A model generated the notes under the pieces. The model did not search any database, was not told the DNA's origin, and saw only the letters and a list, made by a program, of their open reading frames with translations. This document shows, in pieces, positions 194-6,455 of a DNA stretch of 64,000 nucleotides. The DNA comes from an uncultured Coriobacteriaceae bacterium (GTDB taxonomy: Bacteria; Actinomycetota; Coriobacteriia; Coriobacteriales; Atopobiaceae): contig CADAUA010000005.1 in NCBI GenBank assembly GCA_902791035.1, positions 1 through 64,000 on the forward strand, in the 5' to 3' direction. The translations under genes were made by a program, and so were the position numbers. Every line of letters begins with the position of its first letter. The stretch's first letter is position 1.

Positions 194-2212
194 ATGTTCG
201 AGGCCCTCGCGAGCTTCTTCCAGCTCATCGTCCAGCCCTGCTACCAGCTCACCGGCTCCTGGTGGGCGGCGATCTTCCTCTTCACGCTCTTCTCCAAGGT
301 CGTGCTGATGCCGCTCTCCCTCTGGTGCCAGAAGAACTCCATCGTCATGGTCCAGCTCATGCCGGACCTCTTCCGCATCAAGACCAAGTACTTCGGCGAT
401 CGCGAGACCATCGACGAGGAGCAGAACAAGCTCTACAAGGAGCACCACTACCACGCGCTCCTCTCGCTGATCCCCCTGGCCATCCAGGTGATCATCCTCT
501 TCGGCCTGGTGGACGTGATCCACTCCATCACCGACTCCGGCGCCCCCGGCACGGAGTACCTGGGCCTCGTCCCCGCCACCGACGGCGGCACCGCCTGGAT
601 CATGCCCTTTGCCGCGGCCCTCTCCGCCGTGGTCATGGGCGGCATGTCCAACCTCATCAACCCGCTCCAGAAGGAGCAGTCCCGCACCGAGAAGAACATG
701 ACCAACGGCATCTCCATCGCCCTGTCCTTCTTCCTGGGCGTGTACGTGGTGTGCGGCATGGCCTTCTACTGGGTCTGCTCCAACCTGCTCTCCATCCTGG
801 TGCAGGTCCTCTGCAACGTGATCATCAACCCCAAGAAGTACGTGGACTACGACGACCTCAACGCCGCGCGCGACGAGTACAACGCCATGAACGACGCCAC
901 CAAGACCGAGGGCGGCCCCCTCCACCGCGACCCCAACGCCGGTCGCGAGCGCACCGACTACAAGCGCTTCATGAACGTGGCAAACAAGCACCTCGTCTTC
1001 TACTCCGAGGGCTCCGGCTTCTACAAGTACTTCCGCGGCGCCATCGAGTGGCTCCTGGCCAACTCCAACGTCCGCATCCACTACATCACGTCCGACCCCA
1101 ACGACCAGGTGTTCAAGATCGCCGAGCGCGAGCCCCGCCTGATCCCCTACTACCTGGGTCAGCGCCGCCTGATCACCTGCATGATGAAGATGGACGCCGA
1201 CGTGGTGGTGACCACCCTGGGCAACCTGGACACCTACTACATCAAGCGGTCCTACGTGCGCAAGGACATCGAGTATGTGTACATGTGCCACCACATGACC
1301 TCGATGCCCCTCACCTCCACCCGTACGGAGTACGACAACTACGACACCGTGATGTGCGTGGGCCCCCACCAGCACGACGAGCTGCGCGCCCTCGAGGCCT
1401 TCTACCACACCAAGCGCAAGAACCTGCCGCCCGTGGGCTACGACCTGCTGGACCAGGAGATAGCCGACTACGAGGCCGGCCTCGGGTCCGAGGGTCGCCC
1501 GGCGCGCAAGCCCGGCGAGAAGCCCCTCGTCCTCATAGCCCCCACCTGGAACTACGACAACATCTGCGACTCCTGCGTGGACGACATGCTGGACCAGCTC
1601 CTGGGCCACGGCTACCGCGTGGTCCTGCGCCCCCACCCCGAGTACCTCAAGCGCTACCGCAGCCGCTGGGACGCCATCGTGGAGCGCCACCAGGGCGTGC
1701 CCGAGAGCGAGCTGCGCTTCGAGGACGACTTCTCCACCTCGACCTCCATCCTCTCGGCCGACGTCCTGATCACCGACTGGTCGTCCATCTCCTGCGAGTT
1801 CTCCTTTACCACCCTCAGACCCTGCGTCTTCATCAACACCGCGATGAAGGTGGAGAACCCCGAGTGGGACCAGGTGTGCGCCCAGGGCATCTGCGGCCAG
1901 CCCACGGACATCACCCTGCGCGACCAGATAGGCCACTCGCTCGACCCCAAGGACCTCACCACCCTGCCAGCCACCATCGACGAGATGCTGGCCAACCCCG
2001 AGGCCTGGAGCGACCGCATCCGCGAGGTGCGCTCCAAGATGATCTTCAACCTGGGACACGGCGGCGAGGTGGCGGGCGAGTACCTGCTGGACCGCCTGCT
2101 CCAGATAGAGGCCCAGCGCGGCGAGGGCGGCGACAAGGACGACAAGGGCAGCAAGGACGACAAGGGCAACAAGGACGCCCAGCCCGCGGGGGAGGTGCGT
2201 GCCGATGCGTAG
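194..2212 (+). CDS. YidC/Oxa1-like domain fused to CDP-glycerol glycerophosphotransferase (TagF-like)
   Basis: This is a two-domain membrane protein of 672 residues. Residues about 1-220 look like the YidC/Oxa1/Alb3 insertase core: membrane segments near 22-42, 88-110, 134-152 and 173-208, and a cytoplasmic loop resembling the YidC helical hairpin (MVQLMPDLFRIKTKY). The positive residue expected in the first membrane segment is a lysine here (K35, FSKVVLMP), where YidC usually has arginine. Residues about 265-645 match CDP-glycerol glycerophosphotransferases (APTWNYDN, RPHPEYLKRY, TDWSSISCEFS), enzymes that polymerise glycerol- or ribitol-phosphate on the cytoplasmic face. The tail is a Lys/Asp repeat. 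It overlaps the next gene by 8 bases, so the two are probably co-translated. A role in making and membrane-handling a teichoic-acid-like polymer is inferred from the domains and the LTA-synthase-like neighbours. Confidence 0.85.
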   Translation: MFEALASFFQLIVQPCYQLTGSWWAAIFLFTLFSKVVLMPLSLWCQKNSIVMVQLMPDLFRIKTKYFGDRETIDEEQNKLYKEHHYHALLSLIPLAIQVIILFGLVDVIHSITDSGAPGTEYLGLVPATDGGTAWIMPFAAALSAVVMGGMSNLINPLQKEQSRTEKNMTNGISIALSFFLGVYVVCGMAFYWVCSNLLSILVQVLCNVIINPKKYVDYDDLNAARDEYNAMNDATKTEGGPLHRDPNAGRERTDYKRFMNVANKHLVFYSEGSGFYKYFRGAIEWLLANSNVRIHYITSDPNDQVFKIAEREPRLIPYYLGQRRLITCMMKMDADVVVTTLGNLDTYYIKRSYVRKDIEYVYMCHHMTSMPLTSTRTEYDNYDTVMCVGPHQHDELRALEAFYHTKRKNLPPVGYDLLDQEIADYEAGLGSEGRPARKPGEKPLVLIAPTWNYDNICDSCVDDMLDQLLGHGYRVVLRPHPEYLKRYRSRWDAIVERHQGVPESELRFEDDFSTSTSILSADVLITDWSSISCEFSFTTLRPCVFINTAMKVENPEWDQVCAQGICGQPTDITLRDQIGHSLDPKDLTTLPATIDEMLANPEAWSDRIREVRSKMIFNLGHGGEVAGEYLLDRLLQIEAQRGEGGDKDDKGSKDDKGNKDAQPAGEVRADA

Positions 2213-4325
2213 CAGCAAGCGCGTGACCGGCGGGCGCGTGACCGGCGGGCGCGCGACGGCCCGTCGCGACGCCGTCCTGGCCGCGACCGCCGCCTGCGCG
2301 GTGGTCCTTCTCGCCGCCCGTCCCGCCCTGGCCTACGTGGACCCCTCGGTCATGACCTAGACCATCCAGGCCCTGGCCGGCGTGGCCGTGGCCCTCTCGG
2401 CCGTGATGGGCGTGGCCTTCCGCCGCTCGCGCAAGGCCATCATGAGGCTCCTGCACATCGACCCCGACGCCAACCGCATCGTGGAGCCGGCCGTGGCCCG
2501 CATGGCCGCGGCCGACAAGCCCCGCGCGGACGCCGAGGCCCGCGCGACCCTGGGCGGCATGGCGGCGGGCACCACGCGGGCCGTCCAGCCCGGAGAGCGC
2601 CTGCCCTGGCACCGCCGCCTGGTGGTCGCCCTCGTCGTTGTGGCCTTCGTGGTCCTCACCTACTTCGTGGTGGCTCCGGTCGAGCTCCTGGCGGGCAACG
2701 CAGGGGACCTCGTCTTTGGCCTGGCCACGGCCTGGCCGGTCATCCTGCGGGCCGCGCTCGCCCTTCTTGCCGTGTGCACGCTCCTGCTCTCGGTCTTCCG
2801 CGGGCGGGTCTTCGACGTCCTGCTCGCCCTGGCCTGCGCCGTGGGCCTGGCGGCCTACCTGCAGGTCATGTTCATGAACGGGGGCCTGCCAATTACCAAC
2901 GGCAGCCTGGTCAACTGGGTGGAGCACCGCTCCGCCATGCTGGTGAGCACGGTCGTGTGGCTGGCCGTGATCGTGGCTGCCGTGGTTCTTGCCCTGCACC
3001 GTCCCCGCGCCTCCCGCGCCGCCAGCGTGGCGGTCTCTCTCGTGCTGGTGCTGGTGCAGGCGGTGGGGCTCGTGTCCATCTGGACCAGCGATGCCACGCG
3101 TCCTGCGGAATCCTCGCAGCTCAACGCCTATACCGAGGAGGGCATGCTCGACGTCTCCGACAGGTCCAACGTCGTGGTCATCGTACTCGACATGACCGAC
3201 ACGGGCGAGGTCCGGGGGGTCTACCAGGACAACCCCGAGATGTTCGACGCGCTCGACGGCTTCACCTGGTACCAGAACTCCGTGGGCTCCATGGCACCCA
3301 CCCGCTACGGCTGCTCCTACCTGCTCACGGGCCAGCTTCCGCAGGACGGCGAGGACTTCCAGAGCTACCTGGGTCGCTCCCTGGCCCCGGGCAACTTCGT
3401 GGACGACGTGGCCGCCCAAGGCTATGACTTGGGCATCTACTCGGATTCCGGCTCGGTCTCGCACGCCTACCGTGACGCCTTCGCAGGCAAGGCCTTCAAC
3501 GTCCATCCACTCGTGGGCAGCGGCCTCGACAACTTCGACGAGCGAGGCACCCTCAAGATCCTGCTCAAGACCTCCCTCTACCGCGACCTGCCCTGGGCCT
3601 TCAAGCCATACTTCTGGTACTACACGGACGAGATAAACAAGGGCATGACGGTCCCCCTGGACCAGCAGAACGACCTGGCCTCGGTGCCCTACACCTTCGA
3701 CGACCCTGCCTTCCATGCCCGCCTTGAGGCGCGGGGCCTCTCGGTGGAGGATAGGGGACAGAAGGGCTCCTTCCGCTTCATCCACCTGCTGGGAGCCCAC
3801 TTCCCCTATGTGATGGACGCCAACGCCGCGCCGGTAGTGGGCGAGACGACCTACGACCAGCAGCTGCTGGGGTCCTTCAAGATCGTGTCCGAGTACCTGC
3901 AGCAGCTCAAGGACCTGGGAGTCTACGACCAGACCACGGTGATCGTGACGGCCGACCATGGCCGCATCGACTTCATGAAGCCCGAGGACGGCCCCATCAC
4001 GCGGCCTACCAGCCCGATCCTGATGGTCAAGCCCGCCCATGCCGCCCACGGCCCCATGACGATAGACGCCACCACCCCCGTGTGGACGCCCGACGTGCTG
4101 GCCACCGCGCTGGACCAGATGGGTGCCGACCAGGCGACCGTGGCCAAGTACGGTACGCCGGTCTATGCGCTGGCCGACGATCCGGCGCGCGAGCGGTACT
4201 TCGACGCCCCCACCTGGGATGGGAACTACACTGTGGACATGTACCAGTTCAAGGTCGCGGGTCCCGTGGAGGACTGGCGGTCCTGGGAGCTCACGGGCAC
4301 GTCTTGGAAGACGAATGAGAGATAA
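2205..4325 (+). pseudogene. LTA synthase/sulfatase-like membrane protein, copy 1, interrupted by TAG
   Basis: A full-length reading starts at ATG 2205, overlapping the fusion gene, with a signal segment ending RPALAYVDPSVMT. TAG at 2358-2360 then stops it. The paralogue downstream has TAC (Tyr) at the same place in an otherwise identical stretch, so this is a single C-to-G nonsense change. The frame then stays open to 4325. It encodes more membrane segments and an extracellular alkaline-phosphatase/sulfatase-fold domain with the motifs VVIVLDM, APTRYG (candidate catalytic Thr) and TADHGR. In LtaS-type enzymes the Thr and the Asp-His pair are catalytic and metal-binding. Restart at GTG 2382 would give a 647-residue protein whose first membrane helix could still act as an anchor, but no good ribosome site precedes it. 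It could be a pseudogene, a base-call error, or a shortened but active protein. Confidence 0.75.
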
Positions 4326-6455
4326 GGGCGCGGCATCGGGGTCCGCTCCGATGGACAGGGTCAAGAGGCTCGGATTGGCGGCCATGGTCGGCTGCGTGGT
4401 CCTTCTTGCCGTGCGGCCGGCCTTGGCCTACGTGGACCCCTCGGTCATGACCTACACCATCCAGGCCCTGGCCGGCGTGGCCGTGGCCCTCTCGGCCGTG
4501 ATGGGCGTGGCCTTCCGCCGCTCGCGCAAGGCCATCCTGCGCTTCCTCCACGTGAACCCGGATGCCCATCGCGTGGTGGAGCCTGCGGTCCACCGGATCG
4601 ACGTGCAGAACAAGCGCATGGCCGACCAGGCCTACCTGACTCAGATGGGGCACCTCTCGGGCGGCGGGCCGGCCGAGAGGGACCGGCGCTACGAGGAGCC
4701 CTGGTCCCACCGGCTGGGCCTCGCCCTGGCCGTGGCGGCCTTCGTGGCCTTCACCCTCCTGGTGGTCGCCCCCTACGAGATTGTCGCGGCAAACAAGGAC
4801 AGCCTGACCTTTGGCCTGAGCAGCGTGTGGGAGCTCCTCCTGGCCGTTGCCGTGGGCATCGCCCTGGCCGTGGCGCTCGTGCTCTCCGCCCTGCGCGGGC
4901 GCGTCTTCCACGAGGCGCTCGCGGCCTTGGCCGCGCTGGGCGTGGCCTCCTGGCTGCAGGCCCTCTTCATGAACGGGGGCCTGCCGCTGGCCGACGGCAA
5001 CAGCGTCAACTGGACCCAGTACGGCATTCAGGCGCTCGTGACCGCCCTCGTGTGGGTAGGCCTCGTGGTGGGCCTCATGAAGGCCGCCAAGCACTTCCCG
5101 CGCCAGACCCGCCGCGCCCTCGTGGCGGCGTCGGGGGTCCTCTTGGTGGTACAGGCGGTGGGCGTGGGCAGCCTCTTTGCCGAGGGGGACGCCATCCCCG
5201 AGGAGAACCCCGCCATCATGACGGAGCAGGGCCTCTACGACGTGAGCCCGACCAACAACGTGGTCGTCTTCGTCCTGGACACCATGGAGACCAGGGAGAT
5301 CAAGGACTACTACGCCCGCAACCCCACCATGTTCGACGCCTACGACGGCTTTACCTGGTACCAGAACTCCGTTGGGTCCATGATCCCCACCCGCTACGGG
5401 GCCACCTACCTCCTGGCGGGGCAGTTCCCGCAGGTGGGGGAGACCTTTGCGGACTACCGGGCCCAGACCTACGACCGGAGCACCTTCCTCGACGACCTGG
5501 GCTCGCTGGGCTTCTCGGCCGCGGTGTACTCGGACGAGTCCGTTGCCTGGGACGAGCACTCCATGGCCTACCTGAGCACCCATACCATCAACGTGCACCC
5601 CGTGGGCGAGGACGCCCGCGCCGCCGTGGACCCGGTGGGGTCGCTCCAAGTCCTCTACAAGGCGGCCTGCTACCGGGACCTGCCCTGGCCTGCCAAGCCC
5701 TTCTTCTGGTTTAGCACCGAGGAGATAAACAACGGCATGACCGTGAGGAGCGCCGGGCCGACCTCGCCTCCAAGCCCTACGTGATGGACGACGCCAAGTA
5801 CATGGCCGAGCTCCAGGAGACGGGTGTGAGCGCCACCGACACGGGCGTGAGTGGGTCCTACCGCTTCATCCACCTCATGGGCTCCCACCCGCCCTACACG
5901 CTCTACCGTGATGGCACGCGGGTGGCGGCGGGCACCTATCCCGAGGACCAGTCCATCGGCGCCCTCAACATCGTGGCCACCTACCTGCAGAAGCTGAGGG
6001 ACGCAGGCGTCTACGACCAGACCACGGTGATCGTGACGGCCGACCACGGCGAGTGGTACTACACGGCGGAGCCACTGACCAGGCCCGTGAGCCCCATCAT
6101 GCTGGTAAAGCCGGCAGGCGCCCACGGGACCCTGCAGGTCAGCCAGGCCCCGGTGTGGGCGGCGGACGTGCAGGCGACGGTCCTGGCCGCCGCCGGCGCC
6201 GACGAGCAGATGCTGGCTGGCTACGAGGGCGTGCCCGTGTGGCAGATCCCCGAGGACGCGGAGCGCACGCGCACTTATTACATGACTACGAGCGACTGGG
6301 ACCGCGACGTCAACGTGACGGAGTACCACGTGGAGGGTCCCGCGGACGACATCGCCAGCTGGCACCTGACGGGTCGGGTGTGGGACGTCCAGGGATGGAG
6401 CGACGCGTCCAAGAACCCGCCGACGCCCAACGTGGGGCTGCTGCCCGGGGAGTAG
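4315..6455 (+). pseudogene. LTA synthase/sulfatase-like membrane protein, copy 2, frameshifted
   Basis: Second tandem paralogue. It starts at ATG 4315 (or 4351), overlapping copy 1 by 11 bases, with an intact signal segment (RPALAYVDPSVMTYTIQ). It has several membrane helices, then the sulfatase-like domain with VVFVLDTME and IPTRYG. Near 5743-5750 the frame breaks: after EINNGMTV the first frame runs into TGA at 5782-5784. The homologous sequence continues in another frame as EERRADLASKPYVMDD and on through RFIHLMGSH and the metal-site motif TADHGEW to 6455. Copy 1 has an uninterrupted NDLAS at the matching point, so one base is missing (or two added). The upstream frame lacks the DHG motif and would be inactive on its own. 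No slippery heptamer is visible in the overlap, so programmed frameshifting is unlikely. Confidence 0.75.
4424..4536 (+). repeat. 113-bp segment nearly identical to 2329-2441
   Basis: Positions 4424-4536 match 2329-2441 at every base except one (C here, G at 2360), and that difference creates the stop codon in copy 1. Sequence on both sides diverges clearly between the paralogues, which suggests local gene conversion before the nonsense change. Confidence 0.75.

Follow-up and report, generated by a model that had tools for sequence, protein, structure and literature searches.

What is a membrane insertase of the YidC/Oxa1 type doing in the same polypeptide as an enzyme that resembles teichoic acid polymerases? 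The question is raised by a gene at the start of the window, which spans the initial 64 kb of contig C5 in the genome of an uncultured Coriobacteriaceae bacterium (G000; 2.69 Mb in 37 contigs, 99% complete). Positions 194-2212 of the + strand form one uninterrupted open reading frame (ORF) of 672 amino acids (aa), from an ATG at 194 to a TAG stop at 2210-2212, which joins a YidC/Oxa1 domain to a TagF/TarL-like GT-B domain. In brief, three parts are inherited as one set and rearranged by gene fusion (probability about 0.9): (i) a YidC fold; (ii) a cytoplasmic TagF-type GT-B enzyme; and (iii) an LtaS-type phosphotransferase with a Thr nucleophile.

Regarding the identity of the two domains, Pfam assigns residues 23-208 to 60KD_IMP (YidC, PF02096; E 1.3e-28, 100.5 bits vs. 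a cut-off of 35) and residues 374-546, the C-terminal half of the enzyme, to Glyphos_transf (PF04464; E 2.4e-9, 37.1 bits vs. 22.1). The NCBIfam model yidC_oxa1_cterm (TIGR03592) scores 85.7 bits, narrowly above its cut-off of 84.3. In an AlphaFold2 model built with 50 homologues (mean per-residue confidence, pLDDT, 89.2; global score, pTM, 0.74), residues 1-219 match YidC 3wo7 (3wo7_B; Z 18.2, root-mean-square deviation (rmsd) 2.9, 199 aligned), and residues ~241-641 match both TarL 8va1 (Z 21.0, rmsd 5.5, 332 aligned) and TagF 3l7k (Z 20.0, rmsd 5.5, 346 aligned). Against solved structures, the profile of the 50 homologues retrieved YidC (E down to 3.4e-20); neither this profile nor a sequence-only search with the TagF part alone recovered a TagF there, so the TagF assignment is based on Pfam and on the fold. 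A previous sequence-only reading of this DNA had described, in one frame, a four-helix YidC-like domain followed by a full TagF-type enzyme. The single frame and both domains are borne out by Pfam, NCBIfam and the AlphaFold2 fold, including a YidC fold in the first 220 residues, but the helix count must be amended to five core helices plus a C1 hairpin, and "full" holds for the fold, which spans the whole domain, rather than for the Pfam match. The features of the gene are as follows:

194-2212, + strand: YidC-TagF fusion coding sequence (CDS), 672 aa; 193 bases upstream, then the contig end
194-838, + strand: YidC/Oxa1-fold domain (PF02096; 3wo7), residues 1-215, with five core helices and a cytoplasmic C1 hairpin at ~residues 45-87
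296-298, + strand: codon of K35 (verified), at the groove-Arg position of YidC
839-976, + strand: linker of low conservation, residues 216-261, replacing the YidC C-terminal tail
977-2113, + strand: TagF/TarL-like GT-B domain, residues 262-640 (PF04464; TarL 8va1 and TagF 3l7k folds)
1289-1291, + strand: H366, invariant, probable counterpart of the TagF catalytic His, assigned by motif
1628-1639, + strand: RPHP motif, residues 479-482, invariant in 50/50 aligned fusions
1772-1783, + strand: TDWS motif, residues 527-530, invariant in 50/50 aligned fusions

The catalytic His of TagF is presumably H444 (PDB titles name an H444N variant), its equivalence with H366 being drawn from the motif.

The fusion is widespread in the order. 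Within the family, it was found in 34 of 140 genomes, for which reason it cannot be a product of chance. Close relatives do not encode the two domains separately, which the sequence-only reading had named as a refuting condition. Further families of the same order carry it as well: 77 of 396 genomes of the class match at E 1e-20, at least three of them by the TagF part only (G135, G340, G352) and several split across contigs. According to record titles, the carriers include Olsenella, Tractidigestivibacter, Lancefieldella and Atopobium species and related metagenome-assembled genomes, i.e., gut and oral Coriobacteriales. Among 396 genomes of the phylum, to which the profile searches were confined, a threshold of E 1e-40 yielded eight full-length matches, none outside this order, together with one TagF-only match in another class (G587). 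An exact-peptide scan of genome contigs returned 13 loci, and no full-length match was present in 72,556 plasmid records.

The third part of the set is encoded by the gene adjoining the fusion, whose product is a membrane protein with a sulfatase-superfamily domain. In an alignment of 27 such LtaS-like proteins (11 of 38 were left out, the interrupted window copy among them), residues D294, T331, H489, H494, D546 and H547 are invariant (27/27); we take their catalytic roles (Thr nucleophile, metal ligands) to be those of LtaS. One homologue (L033) reaches 27.5 bits with PF00884 (cut-off 25). A model of the partner (pLDDT 85.4) matches sulfatases (Z 22), YejM (Z 21) and LtaS 2w5q (Z 19.4) by fold; by sequence profile, the best solved relative is LtaS (E 2.8e-10), and the NCBIfam LtaS equivalog gives 14.3 bits, below its cut-off of 970. 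At its N-terminus the partner carries a nearly invariant AYVDPSVMTYTIQAL helix.

The fusion and the LtaS-like partner travel together. The partner was found in 33 of the 140 family genomes, all of them within the 34 fusion genomes, vs. none of the other 106; the only exception among the fusion genomes, G010, has a completeness of 88%. Both are present in the same 12 genera and, in genera of mixed content, they are present or absent together (2/5 species in g20; G087 only in g33). This within-genus pattern is a better argument for co-inheritance than the Fisher test of co-occurrence (p 2.7e-31), which ignores relatedness. As far as linkage is concerned, 63 distinct copies of the fusion were counted, of which eight are triple fusions that run in frame into the LtaS-like domain (~1370-1430 aa where complete). 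Leaving aside three copies with under 600 bp downstream, 45 of the 52 separate copies are followed, within 0.5 kb and in the same orientation, by an LtaS-like start. In the tree of 50 fusions, supported branches force at least four changes of the triple-fused state, and such recurrent fusion is a good argument for a joint function of the YidC-TagF and LtaS-like proteins. The tie to downstream lipoteichoic acid synthase-like genes, which had been proposed from the window alone, is thus far stronger than it first appeared (33/34 vs. 0/106 genomes, and repeated fusion into one chain).

In the window itself, two LtaS-like copies follow the fusion:

2205-4325, + strand: LtaS-like copy 1 (PF00884, E 3.7e-6); its start (ATG) lies inside the fusion CDS, with 8 bases in common; interrupted by an in-frame TAG (2358-2360), then open to 4325
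4315-6455, + strand: LtaS-like copy 2; frame broken near 5735-5790, in pieces 4315-5784 and 5781-6455

The TAG of copy 1 is TAC in copy 2, and the frame change of copy 2 coincides with a 4-base gap relative to copy 1. No further LtaS-like copy is present in this assembly. Either there is an assembly error or the partner has been lost in this strain. Copies 1 and 2 are ~67% identical overall, yet they share an identical stretch of 81 bases (2361-2441 and 4456-4536) which starts directly after the TAG and looks like a recent gene conversion or an assembly effect.

Partner genes differ among other carriers too. In the Tractidigestivibacter and Olsenella relatives, up to three tandem LtaS-like paralogues come after the fusion (L034; L035, 12036-18417). 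In G059, the LtaS-like copy beside the fusion is broken and another one is intact elsewhere (L093:4907-7063, L094:5313-7460), so that the partner seems to have moved.

The same parts are also found in a second arrangement. Downstream of the triple fusion of G079 lies another set with the parts exchanged (L103:9003-13067), here called layout B (layout A being YidC-TagF with a LtaS-like partner). It consists of a 929-aa chain in which YidC (PF02096, E 1.4e-21) is joined to a sulfatase-type domain (PF00884, E 1.2e-4, below the gathering score), followed by a separate TagF-like gene. At E 1e-15, 16 of the 396 genomes of the class gave a layout B match, which in G038, G039, G319 and G352 is confined to the LtaS part. 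Among nine B loci (L143, L145 and L146 included), seven have the TagF-like gene right beside the YidC-LtaS gene and in the same orientation; it lies 2.7 kb downstream in L144, and is distant and on the opposite strand in L148. In L150, the YidC-LtaS gene is broken. The LtaS-like domain of layout B has membrane helices of its own; since the YidC fold is here fused to this other enzyme, it is not merely a membrane holder for TagF. The YidC fold is part of a phosphotransferase machine, not just a TagF anchor.

In layout B, the TagF-like proteins begin with YIDPGTGSMLFT or a near variant, followed by a helix (9/9). The motif Y[IV]DP[GSA] is present in 27/27 A-type LtaS-like and 9/9 B-type TagF-like proteins vs. 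0/50 YidC-TagF and 0/11 YidC-LtaS chains. These counts are striking, but the profile test between the A and B regions is weak (best E 0.0056, in 1/9 only), and homology of the two helices is not claimed.

How, then, does the fused YidC domain compare with a working insertase? In an alignment of 50 fusions (5 of 55 were left out as near-duplicates: L003, L005, L007, L009 and L019), mean column entropy is 1.16 bits in the YidC part vs. 1.37 bits in the GT-B enzyme. The least conserved regions are the linker (residues 211-261, 1.69 bits) and the N-terminal 20 residues; the C-terminal 100 residues are, like the linker, less conserved than the YidC part. Residues P40, P57, P94, Q98, Y192, W193 and N197 are invariant in all 50 fusions, as are H366, RPHP and TDWS in the GT-B part. 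Position 35 is K in 49 fusions and R in one, whereas the 16 housekeeping YidCs of the family all have R; the placement of K35 at the groove-Arg position in the sequence-only reading was therefore correct. In layout B, the groove residue is N (11/11). The fusion YidC domains form one clade apart from the 16 housekeeping YidCs (SH-aLRT 100) and, from housekeeping to fusion, the fourth helix goes from a mean of 4.6 to 0.5 Met and from 3.6 to 6.8 polar residues. The fusion genomes examined, namely the own one (G000:C2) and nine more, retain a housekeeping YidC besides the fusion. The basic C-terminal tail of YidC insertases contacts the ribosome. Read from its sequence, the fused domain has neither the groove Arg (Lys instead) nor such a tail (linker and TagF-like domain instead). 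By these features, it appears to be a specialised paralogue under selection, not an insertase copy parked as an anchor, and a YidC match in an annotation need not mean an insertase.

In one divergent group of loci (L056-L062, from family f6 plus G333 of f2), the YidC domain is enlarged by a long insert between model positions ~110 and ~129; in this group, the LtaS-like genes are separate wherever the contig extends far enough.

The leading mechanism for such a set, put forward tentatively and at somewhat less than even odds, is the transport of a lipid-linked product through the YidC groove, which agrees with the second option of the sequence-only reading, namely that the insertase fold handles the lipid-linked polymer. 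Its chemical and transport steps are all inferred, upon parts, folds, linkage, swap and YidC-core conservation obtained by computation: (i) the TagF-like domain would take an activated phospho- or phosphono-alcohol from a cytidine diphosphate (CDP) or cytidine monophosphate (CMP) donor; (ii) it would load that alcohol onto a membrane lipid at the inner face; (iii) the loaded lipid would cross to the outer leaflet through the membrane-open hydrophilic groove of YidC, as in insertase scrambling assays; and (iv) the LtaS-like domain outside would use the loaded lipid as donor or acceptor for the synthesis or decoration of a surface polymer. The outer step may be lost in this assembly, both LtaS-like copies being interrupted. 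For step (iii) there is a precedent: when reconstituted into liposomes, YidC of E. coli and Oxa1 scramble lipids, which in simulations move along the insertion groove (PMC10491306). In a bolder form, possible but rather doubtful, the insertase fold would have exchanged proteins for lipid-linked building blocks as its cargo and would be the transmembrane transporter of a self-contained synthase of Coriobacteriales. If so, the triple fusions would load a lipid inside, slide it through the groove and transfer it outside, all in one chain; insertase-type scrambling would then have a natural, physiological instance, and these proteins would represent a class of envelope-polymer synthases with no need of a separate flippase.

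Several points weigh against groove transport or the set on which it is built. The authors of the scrambling work state that they could not show its physiological relevance (PMC10491306); besides, scrambling of ordinary phospholipids does not imply transport of a polymer or a bulky headgroup. By structure, the GT-B part is equally close to UDP-GlcNAc 2-epimerases, which share the GT-B fold (Z 20.4). The transmembrane (TM) helices TM1, TM3 and TM5 have slightly to moderately fewer polar residues than those of housekeeping YidC, and the helix comparison as a whole, the fourth helix included, depends on one alignment of ~24% identity with approximate helix ends. By the linkage test described above, seven of the 52 separate copies have no neighbouring LtaS-like gene, although one of these (L100) has an overlapping, shifted copy and two others, those of G058 and G012, have an intact one elsewhere in the genome, as does G059. 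In G000, both LtaS-like copies are interrupted while the fusion itself is intact; the same genome has no TagD, TarI-type IspD paralogue or phosphoenolpyruvate (PEP) mutase and, in consequence, a CDP/CMP donor is itself unproven.

The main rival, on the unlikely side, is that the YidC fold is a scaffold: its five helices would form a platform on which the TagF-like and LtaS-like enzymes are kept together at the membrane, and its groove would dock a partner helix, such as the YxDP helix of the LtaS-like protein, with nothing passing through. In either layout, a module contains a single YidC fold and a single YxDP helix, which fits a scaffold, as does the repeated fusion of the parts. But the motif regions of A and B are alike at the motif level only (E 0.0056 in 1/9), and a scaffold would not require invariant polar residues on the groove side or an invariant C1 hairpin.

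It is distinctly improbable that the YidC domain serves as a dedicated insertase or chaperone for the LtaS-like partner, helping it to insert or fold (in cis where all three are fused). Its strict pairing with a polytopic membrane enzyme and its retained YidC signature residues would agree with such a role; nevertheless, the groove Arg has become Lys or Asn, the C-terminal tail has been replaced by a linker plus an enzyme, a housekeeping YidC is also present, and the TagF-like domain in between would be left without explanation.

TagF enzymes are peripheral membrane proteins, for which a passive membrane anchor would suffice. Such an anchor was one option of the sequence-only reading and is kept here as a rival of low probability, lower than that of a dedicated insertase: it is weakened by a YidC part as conserved as the enzyme (1.16 vs. 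1.37 bits) and by layout B, which fuses the same fold to a LtaS-like domain with membrane helices of its own. Finally, a recent accidental fusion, misassembly or pseudogene, which the proximity to the contig end (193 bases) and the broken neighbours in this assembly might suggest, is refuted by homologues: 34/140 genomes of the family, as well as members of several families in the order, have the fusion in one frame.

Compared with known systems, each domain comes from a known family. Like YidC/Oxa1 insertases (PF02096; Bacillus halodurans YidC2, 3wo7), the fusion has the five-helix core, the C1 hairpin and residues P40, P57, P94, Q98 and Y192; unlike them, it has a groove Lys, a polar instead of Met-rich fourth helix and no free C-terminal tail, and it belongs to a clade of its own. 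With the TagF/TarL wall teichoic acid polymerases (PF04464; 3l7k, 8va1) it shares the GT-B fold, RPHP and TDWS, and its invariant H366 is the probable counterpart of their catalytic His, but identity in structural alignments is ~15-16%, the enzyme is fused to YidC, and the own genome has no CDP-glycerol synthase. The partner resembles the LtaS/LtaP lipoteichoic acid synthases (2w5q, 4uop) in its sulfatase fold, the Thr at the nucleophile position and its membrane helices. It differs from them in having an N-terminal YVDPSVMTYTIQAL helix, in being fused or paired with YidC-TagF, and in scoring far below the LtaS equivalog cut-off, with sulfatases and YejM equal or better by fold. Another comparison is offered by the PntC phosphonate-tailoring loci of Atopobium rimae and Olsenella uli, in which, according to the accessible portion of the source, phosphonates activated by cytidine triphosphate (CTP) are destined for the cell surface (PMC6697681). 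These loci belong to the same bacterial group, and layout B adjoins such genes in L143 and L145; in contrast, PEP mutase is absent from the own genome and present in only 4/34 fusion genomes. That portion of the source makes no mention of a YidC fusion (PMC6697681).

What appears new, within the open-access literature searched, is the combination, the triple fusion and the swap: none of the three was found there, the available parts of PMC6893214 and PMC5817068 included. Taken together, the data suggest that cell-envelope construction has co-opted an insertase fold. A YidC fold embedded among lipid-phosphate enzymes, in two swapped layouts and with the groove Arg replaced by Lys or Asn, provides a natural system in which to test the physiological relevance of insertase scrambling away from essential protein insertion. 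It also points to a surface-polymer pathway of common gut and oral Coriobacteriales (Olsenella, Tractidigestivibacter, Lancefieldella, Atopobium) which was not found in the literature searched.

A last question is which donor the TagF-like domain might use. TagF and TarL use CDP-glycerol or CDP-ribitol. Three candidates were considered: (i) CDP-glycerol is not supported as the source of a glycerol-phosphate polymer, as TagD (TIGR01518) exceeds its cut-off in 21/140 genomes, namely 1/34 fusion genomes vs. 20/106 others (Fisher p 0.026, uncorrected), and G000 lacks any match to it; (ii) CDP-ribitol was rejected, as G000 shows, in an IspD search of 20 genomes, one full IspD plus a weak partial match and no TarI-type second IspD; and (iii) a CMP-phosphonate was rejected as a general donor, as PEP mutase occurs in 7/140 genomes, among them 4/34 fusion genomes but not the own one. 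As candidates for a further cytidylyltransferase, G000 has only two PF01467 (CTP_transf_like) matches. Polymerisation of glycerol-phosphate from CDP-glycerol is hence the part of the sequence-only interpretation that is not supported, while its domain call, the fusion in relatives and the LtaS-like tie are.

For layout B, a phosphonate donor is possible. Two B loci (L143, L145) adjoin phosphonate-activation genes: in G134, a PEP mutase-cytidylyltransferase, a decarboxylase-type thiamine pyrophosphate enzyme and a nucleotidyltransferase-alcohol dehydrogenase and, in G071, a nucleotidyltransferase and a class V aminotransferase. Surface phosphonates are described for Atopobium rimae and Olsenella uli in the available part of PMC6697681. 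In another class, the nearest stand-alone TagF-like relative (G587, L091:5523-12044) lies in a phosphonate operon with a PEP mutase-cytidylyltransferase, a phosphonopyruvate decarboxylase, an iron-type alcohol dehydrogenase (Fe-ADH) and sulfatase-type genes.

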